From contig JAPDRO010000025.1 of the NCBI GenBank assembly GCA_030247885.1, positions 462,702 through 526,701 of the forward strand: 64,000 bases of DNA, read 5' to 3'. Every line of letters begins with the position of its first letter. Position 1 is the stretch's first letter. Origin of the DNA: Taxawa tesnikishii (nom. ined.). Taxonomy: Eukaryota > Ascomycota > Dothideomycetes > Dothideales. This document shows, piece by piece, positions 51,940 to 64,000 of this stretch. The position numbers were made by a program, and so were the translations under genes. Below the pieces are notes generated by a model. The model made no database searches. It was given only the letters and a program-made list of their open reading frames with translations, and was not told the DNA's origin.

Positions 51940-52390
51940 ATATATTAGCTATTATTTTATAAGTAAGCCTAGATCTTATTTACTATACTTATAATATAGT
52001 TATATACTTTATTACTACTAATGTAATCCTATATATAAACTAAAGTATCCTTTATTTTCTTATATATAAAGTTATTACTATTATTTTATAAATTTATATT
52101 AGGATAACGCTAAAAAACTTCCTTCTTTAATATAGCTTATATATACTTAATAGAGTTTAAATCTAGTAAGTATAAAGGCTAGTCTTTTAGTAGTTTAATA
52201 CCTTTTTCTTTAAAGAAGACTACTATCTTTTTAGTTATATAAACTCTAGTACTATCTTATTAAAATAGTAGCTCTTTTTAATATATAAGAAGTAAGCCTA
52301 TAGTAAGAATATTAATATATAAGTTAGCTAAGTACCTTTACTTCTTTAACTTTATATCCTTATATATAATAATTAATTTAGTCTTCTAAT
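51940..52390 (-). mobile_element. Tc1/mariner transposase remnant (RIPped)
   Basis: On the minus strand, ignoring stop codons, a Tc1/mariner DDE domain can be read: TRVYITKKIVVFFKEKGIKL at about 52,250-52,190 corresponds to the D..R.H region, and LYLLDLNSIKYI at 52,185-52,145 to the conserved PYSPDLNPIE block, with His-to-Tyr and Pro-to-Leu changes expected from C-to-T mutation. It stops at the edge of the Fot1 element, so it may have been split by that insertion. Its other half was not found. Confidence 0.6.
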
Positions 52391-52392
52391 TA

Positions 52393-52469
52393 ACGTGTTT
52401 TATTACCGAGTAGTTTACTATTACTAAGTAGTTTACCCTTACTAATATCGCGACTATTATAAACTATTA
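52393..52469 (+). repeat. Left terminal inverted repeat of the Fot1-like element
   Basis: 77 bases beginning ACGTGTTTTATTACCGAGTA and ending TATTATAAACTATTA. It matches the reverse complement of 54161-54237 at 73 of 77 positions by my count, and the four differences are transitions, as expected after RIP. Confidence 0.9.
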
Positions 52470-54160
52470 TAATAATACCTTTATAACGTAACGCGTAATT
52501 AACTTATAATAAAGGTATATTATACCTTACTATTAAGGCTACTTAAGTAACTCTTCTTAATAGCTAAAGATATACGTTTAAGGTATTTAACGTCCTTTAA
52601 ATAACTCTAAAACGACGACGTAATAAAAAGCTCGTATAACGCGACTATAAGCAACTTAAAGAAGTTATAAAAGATAAAAGAGAAGGTAATAGTAGTACGT
52701 ATACTCGAGTTAGACTCGCAAGGAATAAATACTATAAAGACTATAATAAAAGAAATAACTAATAATCTACTAGCTACGCGTAGTAAAGGGCCTATTAGTA
52801 AGTACTAGGTAAATAGGTTTAAGATATATACTAAGGAAGTTAAGCTTCGACGTAATTATTTATATAATTATTAGTAAGCCTTAAACGAAGACGTACGCGT
52901 TATAATACTCTAGTTCGAGCTAGTTAAGAAGATAAAGGAAAAGTATAGTATCCTAGACGAAGATATATATAACTTTAATAAGATAGGCTTTATAATAAGT
53001 ATAATTAACGCTTAAATAGTCTTTATAGGCTCTAAGAAATAAAGTAATCTTAAAAGGTATAACTAAGTAACTAGGAGTAAGTTATAATTATCTAAGGTAT
53101 CTACGTTATTAAGTAAGTTATCTTACCCTTTATTATCTTTAATAGTAAGGTCCTTATATTAAGCTAGTACGTAGACTTACCTCGCGACTAAGTACTTAAG
53201 ACTAGCGCTAATAGCTAGATAATAAATAAGCTTACTCTAAAGTAGTTAAAGTACTTTAACGCGTATATAAAGGCGCGTTAAGTAGGTATATATCGCCTAC
53301 TAATTATAAATAGTTATAAGAGTTATAATAGTTATAACTTTTATAACTACTATAAAGAATAAAAGATTATTATTCTTTATATACTCTTATACTTATTATA
53401 CTTATTATAGCTACTTAACGTAAGCTATTTTGCCCCTTAAAGTAAGTATATAACGCGGAGATTAATAGCTAGTTATAGTACTCTACTACGTAAGTTAAGA
53501 AAGAGGCCTTCCTACTAGCCTTTTATATTACTTTTAATAAGGTAATTATAAAGAATAATATCTAGGTAAACTTTAGAGACGCTAGATTAGTTCCCTATAA
53601 CTTAGAGCAAGTACTATTAAAGCTTAACGTAGTACTTTATACGCCGATACTCGTACTATTAGAAGTTACCTTATAGGAGTCTAAAATACTAACTAATCTA
53701 AAGGAAATAAAGGCGTAAATAATACTAGTTTACGAGCGTATATAACTATATAGAAATTCGCTTATCTTACCTCTTTTATAAGCTATAAATTCGCTTACTA
53801 AAGGTATAGCTATTATAAGTTATAAATTAGAGTTATAAATAAGGGAAATTGTAAGTCTTTGAAAGTTAATTAAGGCGTTAATAAAGTAGCGTAGTCGCAA
53901 AAGAAAGTATATTTAAATAGAGGAAAGTCTTATAGTAAGTAACGTATAGGATTTAATAGTTAATAAGGACAATAGTAGTAACAAGGGTACTACTTAGCTT
54001 ATAAAGAGAGTACGTACGTAGAGGTACTATAAATATTATAATAAGACTAGTTATAATACGCGTACTTATACTATAGAAATAGTAGATCTAAATAATAGCG
54101 ATACTTCTAAATAGTATTATAAACTAGAGTATGTTTTTATATAGTATTATAGTACGGAGG

Positions 54161-54237
54161 TAATAGTTTATAATAGTCGCGATATTAGTAAGGGCGAACT
54201 ACTTAGTAATAGTAGACTACTCGGTAATAAAATACGT
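54161..54237 (-). repeat. Right terminal inverted repeat of the Fot1-like element
   Basis: Inverted partner of 52393-52469. It is followed by TA (54238-54239), the target-site duplication typical of the Tc1/mariner/pogo superfamily. Confidence 0.9.
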
Positions 54238-55311
54238 TAAGAGTAAATCCTCTAGGGTATAATAATACCTTATTACTTTTACTTTAACTCTTATAATTTT
54301 ATATATAAAGCTAATAGCCTTAAATAAACTACTCTTAAGCGTAACTTATATAGGCTTTATAGTTAGGATATAATAGTATCTTTTCTTATTGTTTTTACTC
54401 TTTATTTCTACGCTTTTAGTTTTAGCTTTATTTTCGTCCTTATTACTAGTACTACTAGTAGCTAAGCTAGTTATAACGCGACTTATATTAGAAGTTAATT
54501 TAGCGTTATTATAAGTAACTTTACGCTTATAACTACGTTACTTAAGGTTTACGTTAATCTAGTATATTAGCTTTTAAAACGACTCTTTTCTATTATTTAT
54601 TTATATAAATTATATAGTATCGCAAAATTAGTATATTATATTATATTACTTTAAAACTATAGTAAAGATCTTAACCTTAACGTAGTTTTATATTTCGATT
54701 ATTATAAAACTCTTTCTAGTAAGATATAACGCTATAAAGATTCTCTTAATAAAAGTATAAAAGTCGTAGTATTTCTAGTTACTTAGCTATAGGTTCTATT
54801 TGATAATCTACGTAACTAATCGACTATTATTTTTACTAGTATTCTTTAACTTATAAGTTAAAGTTATAGTTACATTAGAGGAGTATCTTTATAAGAGTAT
54901 ATATAAGTATTAAGTAAAAGCTTAGTTAGTCTTCTTTAACTTATAAGACCTTTAAGATTAGCTATATATACTATCTAGTTACTACTTATATATTCCTCTC
55001 GTTTAAATAGTAAATATTCCTTAATATCTTATTTATATTCTTTATACCTTTACGATTTAATTATCTTATTAGCTTCGTAGAAGATAGTCCTTATAGGCTA
55101 TACTAATATATATAGGAACTATTATTAGTACTTTACTTTAACCTTATCGATAGTATAGACTTAACTCTCTATTTACTTATATAAAAAGGCCTCTCTTATT
55201 ATATTAATTAGTAGTTTAATACTAGTAATTTCTATAGAGTAGTACTCTTCTCCTTTTCCTTTATTATATTATATATATAGTTAAGTAATAAAGTAAAGTA
55301 TAATTATAGTA

Positions 55312-55509
55312 GGCCTTTTTAATTTTTCCTTTATATCTTATATACTTATTCGTTTATATTTCCTTTTTACTTTTATACTCTAATAGACTTCCTAGTAGGA
55401 TTACTAGTAGGGCCTTATTAATCTTTCCTTTATATCTTATATACTCGTTCGTTTATATCTTTTCTCTACCTTTATACTCTAATAAATATCCTAGTAGAAT
55501 TACTAGTAG
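55312..55509. repeat. Two tandem copies of a ~99-bp unit in the RIPped island
   Basis: 55312-55410 and 55411-55509 are diverged copies of one unit (GGCC...CTTTATATCTTATATACT...CTCTAATA...CCTAGTAG.ATTACTAGTAG), with the first bases of a third copy after 55510. The differences are mostly transitions. Whether this is a transposon-internal repeat or a satellite is unclear. Confidence 0.7.
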
Positions 55510-56329
55510 GGCTTACTTATTCCCTCGTTTATACTTTATAAACTTATTTCTTTACTTTCGTTTTATATTTCCTTACTAATAAAGTCTTTTATCTAGTTAC
55601 TACCTTTCCTCCTTCTAGTTATATTTATATACTTATTCTTTACTATTACTTATCTTATTTACTTTACTCCTTTATTACTTTAGTACTTAATAGTTACTAC
55701 GTCTTATACTACGTTTTCTTAAGCCTTTCGAATTTATATTAGTATAAAGACTCTATTTATATTATACGTTATACGTTAGTTAATAACGTTATCTTTAACT
55801 ACTATTATAATATTACTTTCTTATCCTTTTATACTTATATAAATCGTCTCTATATATATACTAATTACTTCGTATTATTACCTTCTTATTACGCGTATTA
55901 TTATCTTTTATAATACGCGCGTTATTATCTTCTTATTACGCGCGTTACTACTTTTATAATACGCGTAATATAGACTTATACCTTACTACTAGTTCTTTTT
56001 ATTTCCTTATTTAGCGCTAAATTTAGTCGCTATCTTATATAGTCGTTCTTATAGACTTTCTTTTACTAGTCTAAGGTATTTCTTCCTTTTTACTTACTTA
56101 TATTATATTTTAACTTACTACGTAAAATAATTATTTATCTTAGTTATTATAGTAAGTTATTAAAATTACGCTCTTTCTTTTACTAATTTAAAGTATTTCT
56201 TCCTTTTACTTATAACGTATTTTATAAGTAAGTTAACTACTTAAGTAAGTCGGTTACCTTACGAAACTAAAACGCCTACGTAGTAATATTACGTAATACT
56301 ATAATACTTTATAGTAGTCTATAGAATAG

Positions 56330-57690
56330 TATATAATTATTTAGAAACATTGCTATCTTTTATATCCTCTATTTTTACTTTATAAGTATAGGAGTTATAC
56401 CTAGTCTTATTATAATAGTTATAACGTTACTTTACGCGTACTTTCTTCGTAGCCTTCTCGCCGTTATTACTACTATTACCCTCCTTAGTAGCGACTAAAT
56501 TAGTTACCTTACCTACTATTAGAGTCTCCTCTATTTGTACGTATTACCTTTTGCGACTCTTACGCTTTATAGTTACTTTAATTACGTCTCGTAAACGCGC
56601 TATTTCTTCGCGTATTAATACTATCTTATATACTATTTACTAAGTACTCTTAGTTAGCTACTTAACTTACTTATCTAAAGAACTTACTAGAGACCCCTAA
56701 TGTTTTTATATATAATTTCGAATTAGCGTTAACTACGCCTTTATTTCGCTAGTATTACGTAGTATTTTCGCCTCCTATTCGACTATACCTAGTATAAGTA
56801 GCGTTAGCGTACGTAGCCTTATATCTAGCTTCGATAATATAGCTTCTAAGTTATATAAGACTAGCCTAGCGCCTCGAAACTTTACGTAGATATTTTCTTA
56901 TATAAACGCCTTCTTAAAAGCTACTTTAAAGGTAGTTAAAAGGTTTCTTTCGTAATATAATAAACGCGACTATATATTAAGGCTAAGATCTTATTACTAT
57001 ATAGGTACTTTAGTAGTAAGTAGTAAATAACGTTAAGTAGCTATAGTAAGTATAAGGAGTATAAAAGTATATAAAAAGCTATAATATTATTTTCCTTATA
57101 GTAATCCTAAAATTCGACTAAGTAGTAGCTCTCGTAGTTATTAATAATAAGTAGCCTATATACTCTAATAGTATAAGCCTTTATATACGTATCGAAGTAC
57201 TTAAGCTACGTAAGCGCGAGCTTATTATTAGTCTAGCTAGTAGAGGAGACCTTAATAATCTAGTTATAAAGTAGATTATTAAACTAAGTTAAGATAAGGA
57301 CTTTACTTACGAAGATAATAAAGAGTAAGATAACGCGCCCTATAGCTTTAACGTCTTATATTAAGGTAACTTACTCGCGATCGCTAGGCTATAGTTTCTT
57401 CTATTTACTAGGTTTCTCTAAACATAATAACTAGCTAAGATAATATCTTACTTATTAAAAAGCTAGATTTATTAAAATTATAAGTGTCCTTATTTAAGAT
57501 ATTATACTTTACCTTTATTAACTAAATAAGCGCGAACTAGAGCTAGATAACTACTAGATCCTCGTAGGTAGCTTACTAGCGATCGTACGAATAGCTCTAT
57601 TACGTTCGTAGCTTAAGCGTACGCTTAATAAAGTTATTAACTTAGTTCTTACTAATAGGCTTCCTATTACGCTCTCTACTCGTAGAAGTC
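56330..57690 (-). mobile_element. Second Fot1/pogo transposase, RIPped and 5'-truncated
   Basis: On the minus strand, ignoring stops, a Fot1/pogo transposase runs from the RIP boundary at 57,690 to about 56,330: PISKN.VNNFIKRTLKLRT (CENP-B-type domain, its N-terminal part missing), TLIILINLAF (degraded YNFDETGF), the HSSHLLQPLDV region, then AFIQENIRKSFRGAGLVLYN, LSKLDIRLRTLTLL, RLRDVIKVTIKRKSRKRRYV and a zinc-knuckle remnant (RYNYYNKTRYNSYTYKVKIE). It is clearly a different copy from the first element and lies in the opposite orientation. The truncation point coincides with the edge of the un-RIPped helicase block. Confidence 0.8.
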
Positions 57691-57792
57691 AAACGAATGG
57701 CCACGATTCGTTTGCTTTTGCGTGGGCTATAACCCTAAGGGTTAGAGGAACGACCACGATTCGTTTGCACCTGTTGACCACGATTCGTTTGC
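57690..57792. repeat. Three copies of CCACGATTCGTTTGC with inverted copy and telomere-motif palindrome
   Basis: The 15-mer CCACGATTCGTTTGC occurs exactly at 57701-57715, 57754-57768 and 57778-57792. Just before the first copy, CAAACGAATGG (57690-57700) is a near inverted copy. Between copies one and two lies AACCCTAAGGGTT (57731-57743), a perfect inverted pair of telomere half-repeats. None of this is RIP-mutated, although the sequence immediately to the left is. It could be the end of a mobile unit carrying the helicase gene, a healed break, or a site bound by the encoded protein. Confidence 0.8.
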
Positions 57793-58132
57793 CTTCCCGA
57801 GCCCCAACCTTCTCGAAACCCACACACTATACTGTCATAAGGTTATTCTCTCTGCATGCCAAACACCACTCATATATATGCCATATACATGGAACATCAA
57901 GGGCGGCGGTCTTAAAAGGAAAAAGATGAGGCGCCTTGTGCATAGGCCACTCCCGCATTTTCGCAGGGCGGCCTCTCCAAACAAAGACCAGCCCTGTGTC
58001 TATGCGACGTGATCAGTACGCTCTAAACAATTGATCCTGAGCATCACATGGATCCTTTAAATCCTTAGAAAGGTAATATAGCTATGTCTGGCCTCGCAAG
58101 TATGGCAGCCGTGAAGGCAAGCCAAGACTCAG
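57793..58132. promoter_or_regulatory. Leader/promoter region of the telomere-linked helicase gene
   Basis: 340 bases of ordinary composition between the short repeats and the helicase ATG. It contains a CATATATATGCCATATACATGG stretch (57,870-57,892, given here in outline) that could act as a TATA element. No open frame of note. Confidence 0.4.
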
Positions 58133-61100
58133 ATGGATGATTTTCATCGTCTCTTCCAAGTAGTCGCCCAGCACCGCATCCTTGTTTGCATCCATTGTCA
58201 GTATGCAGTCGTACCTTCGCAGCTCGCCAAACATCTTCGTGTGCATCACAAGCGTCTCAGCTTACAACAACGGCGGGACATTATTGCCAAAGTCGGGTCT
58301 TTTACCGAACTTGCGCAAGTCGAGGCAGATGTCATCTATCCAGCAGCAACAGAGCCTCCCGTAACGGGACTTCCGGTGTACTTCGACGGCTTGAAGTGTG
58401 GCGGGAAAGATGGCGAAGGCAGGCTTTGTCCCTATATATGCCGCACTCCGCGTGGCATGCAAGATCATTGTGAGCGGCAACACGGCTGGGTCAACGGACA
58501 GAAGCGAGGCGGCGATGCTCGTTTGAAGCAGGTCCATACCCACAACAAGCTGTGGTCTTGCGACCGCGCCTGTCAGCGTTTCTTCAAGGTCGGAAGCTGG
58601 CAGAGGTACTTCGAGGTCCAAGTAGCGGACCTGGAGATTTGCGGTCGGAGGCGAGCCGGTCACCAGCGTGACTTCTTCCGGACGCAAGAAGAAGACATCC
58701 TTCAGGCAGAGCGCGACGCCGCATCTGCGGCCAACCGTGTCCGCGGATTCGACGAGCATCGTTCTACCGTGGTACCATGGCTCAGAGAGACCGGCATCGT
58801 CGACCATGTCTGCGGCTTGAAGAAAGACGAGATCCGAGCAGCGATCGCCGTGCCCTCGCGAGACGAAGGATGTCCTCTGCGGACGATCGTCGATGCGATG
58901 GAGGACGTGCTCAGGGAGGCGCACGGCTGGTGTTTCGACGGACCCGACTGTATGCTCACTTGGCCATGTCGCGTCGTTCTCAGTCGGTTCCAGTCGTCGC
59001 AGGTCGAGTCGATTGGGAAGGTTCGGCCGTTCGATCCTTACAAGGAGCCCGGCACGCTCAAGGTCTACTTCAAGCTGGCGTCACAGTTCCTGTCGTACCT
59101 GGAGCGAGTGGCGATCTGTGACGAGTACCACTTCAGTGCTGACTCGGAGGAGACGATCCGGCCAGAGGACGTGATCGAACCGACGGACAAGCAAAGGGTG
59201 GTGTGGCATAACCTCCGTCGGTTAGCAGAACGGGGAGCGACGGGCACGGGTGAAGGGATCAAGGGCCAACTGAGAGATGGGCTGGTTGAGTTATGGATGC
59301 TCGTTATCCGTCACACTACCGGAGCCCGACGGTACCGCTCGCCAATAGTGAGCTTCTGCGCGATGCTAAGCATCAAGCCGTCTACGCAAGGCTGGATGGA
59401 ACCCGGCAACTTCAACAGCAGTCTGTCTGCGATGATATGGGTCGCGCAGCTGCTGATCTTCTATGACTGTGCTCGCAAAGAGCGGCAGGGTGGGGAGAAA
59501 CGCTCGCGCTCGTCAAGGAATGCTGTGAGAGTTATCTGCAGCAGACGGCCGAGACGCCGATGGGGAGATACTCCGCTGGCGCCTGTTGCTGTTTCGCATC
59601 TCGAAGGACAGCGTGGGTGATCATGAGGCCTGTTGGGACGAAAGCGAACAGGTCCTGACATACGAAGATACAGAGCTGCGTATGGACCAGATCCCCACGC
59701 TACTGCTCTCCGAATACCGTGAGTGCGAACGGCTACTGTACGACGACTTGCTGCTGGGTCAGAAGGACCTACGCCGCATGCAGTCTTGGGCGCTTAGAGA
59801 TAGCGGCAACGTCGATACCGTCGGCTGGAGCTTGATCCAGCATCGTGACAACGCTCTCCTGCTGAGGGGGACGGACAAAGCTCTGTTGGCCGCCGTTGAG
59901 CGTTCCGAGCAACTGTGCCGCCTTTTCCTTCAGCAAGACCGTCGATCAGCGAGCGGCTTCGTTTGGAGGGACAGTGCGCTAGCCGGCTACGAGGCAACTG
60001 TGCAGGAGTTCTTGAAACGCTTGTGTGTCCTCGTTCACATCAGTGGCGGTCAGCCCATCCGCGAAAGCGAGTTCTTCTCCATGACCTGGCGGAACACGCA
60101 ACGACGACGATCCATCACACTCCGCCACGATCGTGTCATGATACATGTCAAATACCACAAAGGTCAGCAGCAGACGGGCAGGTACAAGGAAAACATCCGG
60201 TTTCTCGCCAATCCGGTGGGCGACCTGTTGCTGGATTACCTCGTCTATGTCGTGCCGCTACGACAGGTCTTTCTGCGGCAGCAATCACCAAAGGCACTGC
60301 TCTCCTCGTTCTTGTGGGAGAAAGACGGAAAGGTGTGGGGCGAAGGACGGTTGAGTCGTTGTCTGGAGGAAGCCAGTGCTCGGGCGTGCACACCCCGGCT
60401 TCACGTTTCCAACTGGCGCCAGATGAGCGTGGCCATCGTCAAGACCAAGTTTGCGAGCAACATAGGCTGCTTCGAAGTCAACGAAGACGACGAGGACGCC
60501 GAGGAGATGGAGGAGGATATCCGAGCGATGACGAGACAGCGCAACCACAAGACACGCACGGTCAACAGGGCGTATGCCAATCAGACGGGAGCGACCTTCG
60601 GCAACGTGTGGGACGGGCTGATCCGAATGGGACTTCGCGCGTCAACGTTGTGGCAGGACTTCTGGGGAGTGGAGACGATGCTAAAAGGCAAGAAGCGAAA
60701 GAGGGACGGAGAAGAGTGTCGACTGAAGGAACGACTTGCCAAGGGTGTCTATCGGCCCCGCAAACCGTGGTCGGCAGAGGCTCTGCTGGAAGGGCTCAGA
60801 AAGCTCTACGGCAACCAGAGAATGATGTGGAAATCGAGGGAGCAGGAACAGACCCTCACCACGATCATGTCGTGGACGGAGCAGGTGGTGGCCATCTTGC
60901 CAACCGGAGCCGGAAAGAGCCTGTCCTTCATGTTGCCGTGTACGCTGCCTGATGCCGGGATCACCATCCTCATCGTGCCGCTCGTATCCCTTCGGGCAGA
61001 CCTGCTTCGGCGGATACGGGAACTGAACATCGCTCACCTCGAATGGTTGCCGGGAGAAAGTCGAGAAGCATCGCTGATAATCGTCAGCGTTGAGGCTGCG

Positions 61101-62566
61101 GCCACAACACACTTCACGAAATACGCACGAAGCCTGATCGTCCAGCAGAAACTCGATCGAATCGTGATCGACGAATGCCACCTGACGGTGACTGCCGTTG
61201 ACTACCGATCGAGCATCGTCGACCTTACTGCGGTCCGCAATCTCAGGACGCAGTTTGTCTACCTGACAGCCACACTGCCTCCGTCCATGAAAGAGGAGTT
61301 TGAGGAGCGCAACTACCTCTACCGTCCGACAACCATCAGAGCATCGAGCAACCGACCCAACATATTCTACATGGTCCGCAGGGCAGACCCTCGCAAAGGC
61401 AGCCTTCTGGAGCAGAGTGCGGTCGAAGCGCAAGACGCGTGGCGCGACTCCGACCTGTTCGATCATTCCCGTGACAAGATCGTCCTATACGTCCGAACGT
61501 GTGAGGACGCGGACAGCCTGTGCCAACTGCTTGGTTGTGCTGCATACACCGCAAAGAGCGGAACGCCGGAACAGAAGAAGCTCATCGTTGATCGCTGGAT
61601 CCATACCTCCGACCGCCCGTATCTCGTTGCCACGACCGCTCTTGCCGAAGGCTTCGACCACGCTCATGTACGTCTGGTCATGAACGTAGGGGAGCCGGAC
61701 TCGTTGGTCACCTTCGCGCAGGAGTCGGGTCGGGCCGGCCGCGACGGGATGGAGGCGTACTCGATGGTTCTCCTGCCGGCGACGTGGCAGGCACAGCTCG
61801 AAGACGACGTCGACGTCGGTTCGGAGCAGACGGGCAGCTGCAGGGACGACGTGTCACTTCGCAAGCGACGGGACAAGCAGGCCGTGCACAAGTACTTACG
61901 AGGCGAGCAATGTTTCCGAACTTCGCTGAGCGAACACCTCGATCTCGCTCAGCACCGAAGGTGGTGCATGCCGGAAGACGTGGCTTGCGACGTCTGCAAA
62001 GCGGCTCACGAGGATCAATCGCAGCCTCGGACGCGACAAGACGGCAGACCGCCCACACCGGACTCGATCTCATCCAGCAAGAGCGGCTGCAGGCTCACTC
62101 CGAACTTGTCAACTACCGTCTGGACCTGGCCAGCGTGCGCGGGACATGCTTGCTCTGCCGTGCGATGGACGAGGAATGGAAGCACGAGTTCTCCAAGTGT
62201 GCCCGGCGGCATGAGGTGTTTCACGAGCGCAGTCGAGTACGGCAGCGGCACGAGACACGCGGACGAAAGTGGTTGCGTCCGTACACGAGCTGCTTCTGGT
62301 GCCTAAACCCTCAGTCCATCTGCCAAAGGGCTGAGCTCAGCAAGACCAGTAAGGAAGAAGCGTGTGAGCACGGAGACGTGGTCCTGCCGCTCTGTTACGG
62401 GATATTCGTGAGCGCCGGAGGAGCCAGATGGCTAGAGGACCACTTCCGGCGCAGATTCGCCGGGGTGGAGGATTTCTTTGACTGGTTGGGAGAGGAGACA
62501 AGATTTGGAGGCGGAATGGCGGTACAGGGAGTCAGAGTAGCGGCAAAGGCTTTATTGTCGTTCTAA
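58133..62566 (+). CDS. Telomere-linked OrsD / tyrosine-recombinase-like / RecQ helicase protein (three 1-base frame breaks)
   Basis: Intronless 4.4-kb gene encoding 1,478 residues once single bases are restored at GGGG 59492-59495, GGGG 59562-59565 and near 62045-62054. Domains: an N-terminal OrsD (DUF3505) zinc-finger region (CIHC...HLRVHH, residues about 19-39; a second Cys/His cluster about 90-125); a middle region (about 620-830) with tyrosine-recombinase features: R644 in GGQPIRESEFF, Lys near 677, R763 in HVSNWRQM, and H806/Y815 in NHKTRTVNRAYA with the canonical nine-residue spacing; then a RecQ-type ATPase (PTGAGKS with K929, DECH at 1014-1017, YLTATLPP, QESGRAGRDG near 1200) and a Cys-rich tail (CLLC, CFWC). 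It is transcribed toward the telomere and sits 1.35 kb from it. It is un-RIPped, so it is probably recent, single-copy or protected. Function is inferred: telomere or subtelomere maintenance or self-mobility. Confidence 0.85.
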
Positions 62567-62607
62567 GATAGCGAGGTCAGAGACAACTAATAGCAACGAC
62601 CTATAAG

Positions 62608-62703
62608 AAAAAACAGAAGAAGTAGTGAAGGAAAAAACAGAAGAAGTAGTGAAGGAAAAAACAGAAGAAGTAGTGAAGGAAAAAACAGAAGAAGTAGCGA
62701 AGG
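62608..62703. repeat. Four tandem copies of a 24-bp unit
   Basis: Units begin AAAAAACAGAAGAAGTAGTG and occupy 62608-62631, 62632-62655, 62656-62679 and 62680-62703. Only the last has a substitution (TAGC for TAGT). They start 42 bases after the helicase stop codon, so they may lie in its 3' untranslated region. Confidence 0.92.
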
Positions 62704-63880
62704 AAAAAAATAGATAATAGCTTAAGAGGTAAATACGTTAGGTCCTTACTAGCTCCGACAAGCAAGAAAGAGTCCTAACAAAAAGTAAACGCCTAATAAT
62801 AAGTTAGTTAGAGTAGTTAAGAAGAAGTCTAATAGATAAGGAAAGTAACTTAGTTAAATAGACTTAAGCTAAGTTATAAAGAAGTTAAGAAAGAATCCTA
62901 AAGTATAATAAAGTTCTTCTTAAACCTTAGGGATTATATAGGATAATATAGAACTAAGAGTTAGGGTTTAGATAAATAAGGGTAAAAAGTAAGTATATAA
63001 ATGAAGAAGACGATAATCATAGAAAAGCTAAGTTTTAAAGAAAGGAACAATATTTCTCTATATAGGATTTTCAAAAAAAAAGGTAATATTTCTCTCTATA
63101 ACAAGTATAATATTTTAAAGAGAAAAAGATATATCTCTTAAGATAAAAAAAGATAAAAGAAAGAAAAAGAAAAACTAATAGATTTAATAGTAAAGTAAAA
63201 GAAATTAAAGTAAAATAGTGGAATATAAAAAGAAAAAGGAGATTAGTTAAGAATAAGAGAAAAAAAGTAAAAAGGAAAGTAAAGTAAGGGAGGATAATAT
63301 AAAAGAAAAGAGAAGATAATAAAAAGAAAAGGTAATAAAAAGAGAAGGAATAAAATAAGTAAGTTAGAAAATAAGAGTTATAATAAGGAAGGAATAAAGA
63401 AAGAAAGTTTAAGTAATAGGGATATAATAATATAGAAATAGAATAAAAGTAAAAAATAGGAAAATAAGAAGAGATAAAATAAAAGAAAGAAAAGAAATAA
63501 AAGAAAAAAGTTAAAATAAGAGATTTATAGTAAAAGATAAGGAGTAAAGTAATAGAGATATAGTAATATAAGAATGGAATAATAAATTAGTAGAGTTAAA
63601 GTAATATTTAAAAAGAATAAGAAAGTAATAAAAATATAGTAATAAAGTAATAAAATAATAAAGTAGTAAAGTAGTAAAGTAATAAAATAATAGAGTAATA
63701 AATAGTAGAGTAATAGAATAGTAGAGTAATAGAGTAGTAAAGTAATAAAGTAGTAGAGTAATAAGATATAAGAAGAATAAAAGAAGTAGAGAGATAAAAT
63801 AGAAAGAAAGAAATAAAGTAGAAAGAGAAAAACATTGAAAAAGAGAGTGAGTGAGTGAGAGTAAGAATGAGTAAGAATAA
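62704..63880. other. C-poor polypurine subtelomeric tract
   Basis: About 1.2 kb in which the plus strand is A/G-rich, T is moderate and C is almost absent, with AAAAAGAAAG-type and (GTAATA)n-type runs, for example 63625-63775. The only long open frame is an antisense Tyr/Ser/Leu-rich translation of the simple sequence and is not a gene. Strand asymmetry increases toward the telomere. Confidence 0.8.
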
Positions 63881-63920
63881 GAGTGAGTGAGTGAGTGAGT
63901 GAGTGAGTGAGTGAGTGAGT
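63881..63920 (+). repeat. GTGA microsatellite abutting the telomere
   Basis: About ten GTGA units run directly into the first GGGTTAGGG. Scattered earlier units (63847-63860) are interrupted by GTAAGAAT variants. Confidence 0.9.
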
Positions 63921-64000
63921 GGGTTAGGGTTAGGGTTAGGGTTAGGGTTAGGGTTAGGGTTAGGGTTAGGGTTAGGGTTAGGTTAGGGTTAGGGTTAGGG
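63921..64000 (+). repeat. Telomere, TTAGGG repeats
   Basis: About 13 TTAGGG repeats reach the end of the window in the orientation expected for a right chromosome end (G-rich strand 5' to 3' outward). One unit is short (TTAGG, at 63979-63983). The repeats mark a true chromosome end and show the canonical vertebrate/filamentous-fungal telomere sequence. Confidence 0.97.

Follow-up and report, generated by a model that had tools for sequence, protein, structure and literature searches.

A telomere cassette of Taxawa tesnikishii encoding a RecQ helicase with a tyrosine-recombinase-like domain: a candidate one-ended DNA transposon

The window analysed here is a stretch of 64,000 nucleotides from the dothideomycete Taxawa tesnikishii (contig JAPDRO010000025.1, positions 462,702 to 526,701 of the forward strand). 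It is the right end of a contig (C18) in a 29.4-Mb assembly of 34 contigs, and Tandem Repeats Finder (TRF) showed that it terminates in TTAGGG repeats. The last 6.3 kb of the window form a discrete unit, referred to here as the telomere cassette, with an exact 5' end and a single recognised gene encoding an OrsD zinc finger, a tyrosine recombinase (YR)-like domain and a RecQ helicase. We suggest, with a probability of roughly 0.55, that this feature is a mobile telomere cassette, in other words a one-ended YR-RecQ DNA transposon. A preliminary description of the gene had guessed at a unit, part helicase and part recombinase, by which chromosome ends are copied or moved. That guess gains support from a conserved set of catalytic residues and a weak match to Xer profiles, and further support from the presence of a discrete 6.3-kb unit with an exact end and a CT/TT core at 51 chromosome ends. 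The coordinates proposed in the preliminary description (58133-62566) cover the gene and leave out the enclosing unit (57676-64000).

Exact junctions at 51 chromosome ends

The cassette and the elements at its borders are as follows.

57676..64000, + strand: the complete cassette of about 6.3 kb, running from a precise 5' end through one gene and an AT-rich tail to the telomere repeats; delimited by copy comparison
57676..57685, + strand: 5' terminal sequence CTACTCGTAG, identical at 51 of 51 junctions; its first two bases, CT, coincide with the target core
57688..57792, + strand: three sites of 15-16 bp (..CCACGATTCGTTTGC), found by repeat search
57731..57743, no strand assigned: AACCCTAAGGGTT, telomere repeats placed head to head as a palindrome within the site cluster, found in the sequence
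62607..62709, + strand: tandem repeat 3' of the gene, 24 bp x 4.3 copies (TRF score 199)
63921..64000, + strand: TTAGGG telomere repeat, the distal end of the cassette (TRF)

Searching the genome at the DNA level with the final 10 kb of the window gave 292 candidates, of which 21 were scored. All 21 of these other copies start no more than 4 nt from the position corresponding to 57676 and are 99-100% identical to the window cassette; 20 extend into telomere repeat, and the copy at the left end of contig C5 reaches the contig end just before the repeat. The first 23 nt of the cassette occur 51 times in the genome, every occurrence being perfect in a search that allowed two mismatches. Left ends account for 27 of these starts and right ends for 23; the remaining one is inside scaffold C2, where a cassette copy adjoins a 500-N gap (C2:865181-865680) with telomere repeats on both sides. 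Scaffold C2 probably represents two chromosome ends that were wrongly linked, and the internal copy is counted as terminal because it abuts a gap lying between two telomeres. In the other 50 copies the distance from the cassette start to the contig end is 6.2-6.4 kb, and in all copies the gene is oriented outward. The position of the gene beside a telomere, as first described, recurs when homologues are sought at other chromosome ends, the outcome being 51 terminal cassette copies.

All 51 junctions have the identical first cassette nucleotide, and the flanks differ at the joint. The longest suffix shared by any two flanks at the joint is 6 nt (1275 flank pairs), and where flanks belong to one repeat family, as some do, the cuts fall at different places. 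In the window itself, the DNA from 52.0 to 57.7 kb is AT-rich (26% GC), and composition switches abruptly to 58% GC at 57676.

Uninterrupted copies of the flank that run past the joint (empty sites) were found for 15 of the 51 junctions, having been sought among the loci already fetched and in the window; flanks from repeat families supplied many of them. Nine of these empty sites have CT at the joint, five have TT and one has TA. CT at 9/15 compares with a background of 7% (P = 1.3e-7), and CT or TT at 14/15 with a background of 18% (P = 6e-10). Among the 11 empty sites with at least 85% identity, eight have CT and ten have CT or TT, a result equalled in none of 100,000 random draws. The base preceding the joint is also biased, being C in 20 of the 51 junctions, which is above expectation. 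The CT/TT core in 14 of 15 empty sites is as expected for site-specific recombination. The empty site for the window junction (locus L314) reads ...CCTATTACGCTCT followed by CTTAG..., where the window continues CTACTCG.... The DNA formerly beyond the target is gone from the window, and the cassette and telomere stand in its place.

The cluster of repeated sites starts 12 bases inside the cassette 5' end, its outer arms lie at 57685-57698 and 57783-57796, and its first site makes up one half of a 9-7-9 inverted repeat (57690-57714). Inverted repeats of this form are the type of site bound by YRs. The site sequence has 152 matches in the genome, and the backward control has none; all 100 places listed for it lie within cassettes, and the total corresponds to three sites in each of 51 copies minus one missing at the right end of contig C13. 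The sites are presumed to bind the recombinase-like domain or the OrsD domain. In L039, a divergent relative of the gene, an 18-nt inverted repeat and TTAGGGTTA occur a few hundred base pairs upstream of a gene start that is itself uncertain. Within the cassette, the first 14 nt do not recur in inverted form.

Over 4-4.8 kb, 29 other copies show 0 substitutions relative to the window and only 1-nt gaps, at ten places. These copies are best matches and hence biased toward identity (38 loci minus eight refetched places minus the window itself). The absence of substitutions says that spread or homogenisation was recent, or that variation has been hidden by polishing. Among 55 ends recognised by either of two subtelomere types, 51 bear the cassette. 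The second type, whose members are 89-97% alike, occupies four cassette-free ends (C2:863600-865099, the right ends of C2 and C15, and the left end of C16), and on C2 each of the two is accompanied, about 10 kb in, by the divergent relative L040 or its copy. Window positions 52000-57675 and most flanks at other ends are AT-rich and have the look of DNA mutated by repeat-induced point mutation (RIP), and the adjoining cassettes are GC-rich and alike. Either RIP has not acted since the cassettes spread or renewal outpaces decay. Upstream of 52 kb the window contains ordinary genes, encoding MFAP1, MDM10 and a glycosyl transferase 90 protein.

The encoded protein and its tyrosine-recombinase-like domain

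The only gene recognised in the cassette starts 457 bp from the 5' end and has the following parts.

58133..59499, + strand: first frame piece of the gene (Pfam)
58151-58486, + strand: OrsD zinc-finger domain (Pfam PF12013, E 1.5e-23)
59529..62306, + strand: 925-amino-acid open frame with the YR-like domain and RecQ helicase (coding part about 59577-61990)
59952..60668, + strand: YR-like catalytic domain (seven-subfamily invariance, XerD profile match)
60060, 60159, 60417, 60546 and 60573: codons of the YR-like domain for Arg-I, Lys, Arg-II, His and Tyr, respectively
60840..61748, + strand: RecQ-type helicase core (Pfam DEAD, 60840-61292, E 3.3e-13; Helicase_C, 61461-61748, E 4.4e-11)
61992..62566, + strand: C-terminal Cys-rich piece in a third frame (open frame to 62566)

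The preliminary description had recognised an OrsD-type N terminus, which the PF12013 match on the first frame piece bears out, and had named a series of motifs, all of which are present. The RecQ motifs PTGAGKS, DECH and QESGRAGRDG begin at 60900, 61170 and 61719, and the recombinase-like motifs GGQPIRESEFF, NWRQM and NHKTRTVNRAYA at 60045, 60411 and 60543; in the last of these, His and Tyr are indeed nine residues apart. The Lys-bearing motif YHKGQ starts at 60153. Matches of the helicase part in the PDB were led by RECQ5 (E 8.7e-26), RECQ1, BLM and WRN. The Cys-rich C-terminal piece gave no significant Pfam match. The three frame breaks reported earlier are also found, near 59500, 59575 and 61990, with the first piece ending at about 59500, a short stretch in the third frame at about 59575 and the main piece at about 61990, before the Cys-rich tail. 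An intron was considered as the cause of the breaks near 59500-59575 and rejected by eye, the third frame continuing in similarity to L039. Because L039, a relative of 46% identity, reads openly across both of the first two breaks, we read these as frame breaks and not introns; the breaks have perhaps arisen through assembly error.

The genome contains six divergent relatives, L039 (46%), L042 (35%, with stops), L040 (34%), L041 (26%), L212 and L213, which together with the window give seven subfamilies for the analysis of conservation in block alignments. Of 211 columns covered by at least six subfamilies, eight are invariant, and Arg-I, Lys, Arg-II and Tyr are among the eight. Arg-I, Arg-II, His and Tyr had been named as catalytic residues before any relative was known. 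Their conservation holds for Arg-I, Arg-II and Tyr (7/7) and has exceptions for His (5/7), in a count that omits heavily decayed relics among 85 listed matches (for example C6:836326, C9:712566 and C29:699456). The exceptions at His are Arg in one subfamily and Tyr in another, the latter a copy with stop codons, where His to Tyr is a change that C-to-T decay would give. Lys is kept in all six subfamilies that cover it; it is assigned by motif alone and is unmatched in profile alignments. The strict HxxR histidine, which the preliminary description had noted as lacking, is absent, with Ser at this position in the window and L039 and other residues elsewhere. The HxxR residue is less strictly conserved in known YRs. 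Five more hits stand outside the alignment used. Two of them gave alignments, namely L043, which is closely related but decayed, and L045, which duplicates L040; L044, L046 and L047 gave none.

Between the window and L039 the YR domain is 47% identical, compared with 47% for helicase part I and 33% for part II. Fourfold-degenerate sites agree at only 12 of 42 positions, and the YR domain is therefore under constraint at the protein level.

Profile comparisons point in the same direction. An Xer profile was built from 47 proteins (48 of 80 listed XerD relatives were chosen, two with internal stops were dropped and XerD was added to the remaining 46), and a second profile added lambda Int, FimB and FimE to these 47. 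The family was aligned to both profiles in two versions: one (A1) in which the L040 piece with His and Tyr is gapped, and the block alignment, in which it is ungapped. In the hhalign profile alignments Arg-I, Arg-II and His are each in register with Xer in four of four, and Tyr in three of four. The XerD profile score of A1 is 32.3, compared with a maximum of 23.4 among 296 scored column shuffles and with 15.4 for reversed XerD; for the block alignment the corresponding values are 27.8, 19.1 (297 scored) and 12.9. All 593 shuffles that returned a score fell below the real scores (600 were made, seven of them yielding none), and the family's own helicase part scored 15.3 against the Xer profile. 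Judged by its conservation in homologues, the YR-like part is more than chance, and the middle domain is very probably a diverged YR. As a candidate N-terminal core-binding domain, 26 columns aligned to the matching part of XerD (score 22.8, probability 1.4%); this match was not counted.

Single-sequence searches gave no such signal. No phage-integrase or DUF3435 match was listed in Pfam up to E 1 for the window pieces, or up to E 10 for pieces of L039, L040 and L041 and the window YR region, in searches where HMMER filters drop most matches above 0.1. The YR-like part is thus not recognisable by single-sequence search. PHROGs and NCBIfam searches with the A1 members found no recombinase. Genome-wide, the Pfam phage integrase was found nowhere, with the control positive in 14 of 14; DUF3435 (PF11917) was likewise found nowhere, but its control was also positive nowhere, so this result is no evidence of absence. 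In viral contigs no relative of the YR-like domain was found, 14 pattern matches yielding 0 confirmed cases.

Several relatives show features of their own. L040 and its copy have a sharp 5' limit in common after different flanks, and the pattern of an exact end may extend beyond a single subfamily. In the decayed L041 (C2:7500-12000), OrsD-like zinc-finger sequence stands before the YR-like part (by eye) and again after it (Pfam E 0.035); helicase pieces follow the second OrsD-like stretch, and the locus lies just inside the 6.3-kb cassette of that end. Other decayed relatives occur at C6:836326, C9:712566, C1:13201, C29:699456 and elsewhere, several of them a few kilobases inside an intact cassette, and are possibly older end units that were pushed inward. 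On contig C27, degenerate TTAGGG repeats (L212:5000-5201) lie upstream of a divergent family member, as if that unit had landed on an older telomere.

A proposed mechanism and its alternatives

The junction data are direct and strong, the assignment of the enzyme is good though not structural, and the mechanism suggested by both is open to test. In the transposon that we propose, the protein would bind the repeated sites 12-120 bp inside the cassette 5' end, and its YR domain would cleave at the CT of that end and join the end to CT or TT on another chromosome. The 3'-to-5' RecQ motor, loaded on the complementary strand, would then peel the cassette strand outward to the telomere, and the copy would be completed by running off the chromosome end, so that one end is cut and the other is the telomere. 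DNA beyond the target would be replaced by a fresh capped end. YR cleavage leaves a 3'-phosphotyrosine and a free 5'-OH, and RecQ helicases translocate 3' to 5'. The polarity fits: the 5'-OH freed by a YR would belong to the cassette strand, and a helicase travelling 3' to 5' along its complement would head for the telomere.

Several points weigh against the transposon. In the putative recombinase domain, the HxxR histidine (His or Lys three residues before Arg-II) is missing and His-II is variable. The hhalign probability of the family against Xer is 11-32%, compared with 97.95-99.9% for Cre, lambda Int and FimB against the same profile; in the best-scoring alignment, that of A1 to Xer, a gap displaces the Tyr, and none of the four alignments brings Lys into register. 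The window sequence alone scores 23.3 against the Xer profile, the N-terminal part of the family, outside the catalytic domain, scores 22.8, and comparison of the family with single Cre or lambda profiles gives noise, as does that of Cre with lambda. A profile search of the PDB with the YR part found no recombinase, and single-sequence AlphaFold models of two segments of the window protein had a predicted local distance difference test score (pLDDT) of 32 both times. No full-length frame was found among the 62 and 85 matches listed, the longest being 1012 amino acids compared with about 1478 expected, and present activity is doubtful unless the frame breaks are assembly errors. The 0 substitutions among 29 copies point to an additional contribution, either from assembly polishing or from homologous exchange that took place recently between ends. 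Lastly, we infer the activity and movement of the cassette from its sequence, and the making of the junctions is attributed to the encoded protein solely because no other gene is recognised there.

The uniformity of the copies is what passive spread would produce. Here, ends bearing an ordinary telomere-linked helicase would be copied by homologous recombination or break-induced replication, the YR-like part being vestigial or structural. Homologous recombination between subtelomeres has been proposed for S. pombe in the part of that source available (PMC7840980), the lack of substitutions says that the units were homogenised or spread very recently, and a boundary, once formed, would stay put under homogenisation alone. 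Such recombination requires shared sequence, yet no two of the 51 flanks have more than 6 nt in common beside the joint, flanks of the same family are cut at different points, and the targets have CT or TT at the joint. The first joints at a single point of the unit would be left unexplained, and we regard passive spread as unlikely.

Similarly unlikely is that the cassette end is cut in trans by another enzyme (a transposase, a nuclease or a retroelement enzyme) and that the YR-RecQ protein merely maintains telomeres. The copies do look frame-broken, and no physical link ties the protein to the junction. Set against this, no second gene is recognised in the unit, the constraint on the YR domain equals that on the helicase, and the site cluster adjoins the end while the gene starts 457 bp away, which resembles the position of Starship captains (about 350 bp in Sanctuary, according to the part of PMC12506042 available).

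Less plausible still is conservative exchange of ends, in which a two-strand YR crossover would swap whole ends, copies would rise by segregation and selection for caps, and RecQ would have a separate role. It fits the same junction data, and ordinary YR chemistry would suffice. A cassette at 51 of 55 recognised ends is, however, hard to reach without replication, and the fusion to a helicase would go unexplained. An assembly or polishing artefact that wrote a consensus end onto contigs is very improbable: it would account for the zero substitutions in 29 other copies, and scaffold C2 does wrongly join two telomeres through 500 N, but an assembler would not choose CT/TT targets (14/15) or give 51 flanks a common start, and four ends bear another subtelomere type.

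Beyond the one-ended YR-RecQ transposon itself, a wider and more tentative proposal, for which the odds seem to us a little short of even, is that the cassette represents a previously undescribed class of DNA transposon, in which sequence defines one end and the chromosome terminus the other. A YR-RecQ fusion would cut the proximal end and join it at CT/TT, the element would serve as the chromosome cap, fungal telomere-linked helicases would be its transposases, and telomere replacement would heal broken chromosomes.

Comparison with known systems

Telomere-linked RecQ helicases (TLH) of fungi include UTASa and UTASb of Ustilago, tlh of S. pombe and the TLH genes of Magnaporthe and Fusarium. 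Like them, the gene described here has a RecQ core, lies beside telomeres and is present in many copies. According to the portions available of the sources, such helicases date back in the literature to 1998 or earlier (Ustilago), what the Tlh protein does in S. pombe still awaits clarification (PMC7840980), and an OrsD domain is reported for Ustilago UTASb (PMC10532341), a comparison that extends here to the OrsD and RecQ architecture alone. TLH genes from several fungi, their connection with OrsD in Ustilago and the way in which Starships are organised are treated in the accessible parts of PMC10532341, PMC12857005, PMC10799480, PMC4522978, PMC7473861, PMC8381367, PMC7840980, PMC7593156, PMC12153272 and PMC12506042. 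The cassette differs from TLH, as far as these are described there, in its exact 5' end, its CT/TT target and its YR-like domain. The portions of the open-access literature covered report no recombinase domain or exact end for telomere-linked helicases, and papers on Magnaporthe, Ustilago, Fusarium and Metarhizium may hold part of this picture. If a YR-RecQ transposase with one exact end is indeed at work, the telomeric home of TLH genes, their copy number and their change from strain to strain could all follow from one mechanism. The idea is open to test, since exact 5' ends and dinucleotide targets can be sought in fungal assemblies that run from telomere to telomere.

The cassette resembles Starships, whose captains are DUF3435 proteins, in having its YR-like gene first at the 5' edge (457 bp here and about 350 bp in Sanctuary; PMC12506042, in part) and in its short direct-repeat target (2 bp in common here and 2-12 bp in A. 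fumigatus, in the excerpts available). It is unlike them in carrying one gene in 6.3 kb, compared with about 20-700 kb as given in those excerpts. It also differs in that the pieces tried gave no DUF3435 match, a RecQ helicase is part of the same protein and there is no second end; Starships are defined by two ends with direct repeats and by large cargo, whereas the cassette has one defined end and the telomere as its distal limit. Cryptons are small YR-encoding units with two ends and a short core shared at the joint, and they are not known to have terminal inverted repeats or a helicase. As so described, they are like the cassette in being small, in lacking terminal inverted repeats, in encoding a YR (a probable one in the cassette) and in the short core at the joint, and unlike it in that the cassette has one end and a helicase.

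No reverse transcriptase was found by Pfam in the three frame pieces of the gene, the nearest hint being a zf-RVT zinc-binding match at E 0.21, below the cut-off. Like the telomeric retrotransposons MoTeR, FoTeR and HeT-A, the cassette is located at, and would add to, chromosome ends; unlike them, it has an exact end that faces the chromosome and a gene that points outward. If the proposed transposon is real, it would be a DNA-transposon counterpart of these telomere-capping retrotransposons and would link site-specific recombination with chromosome healing.

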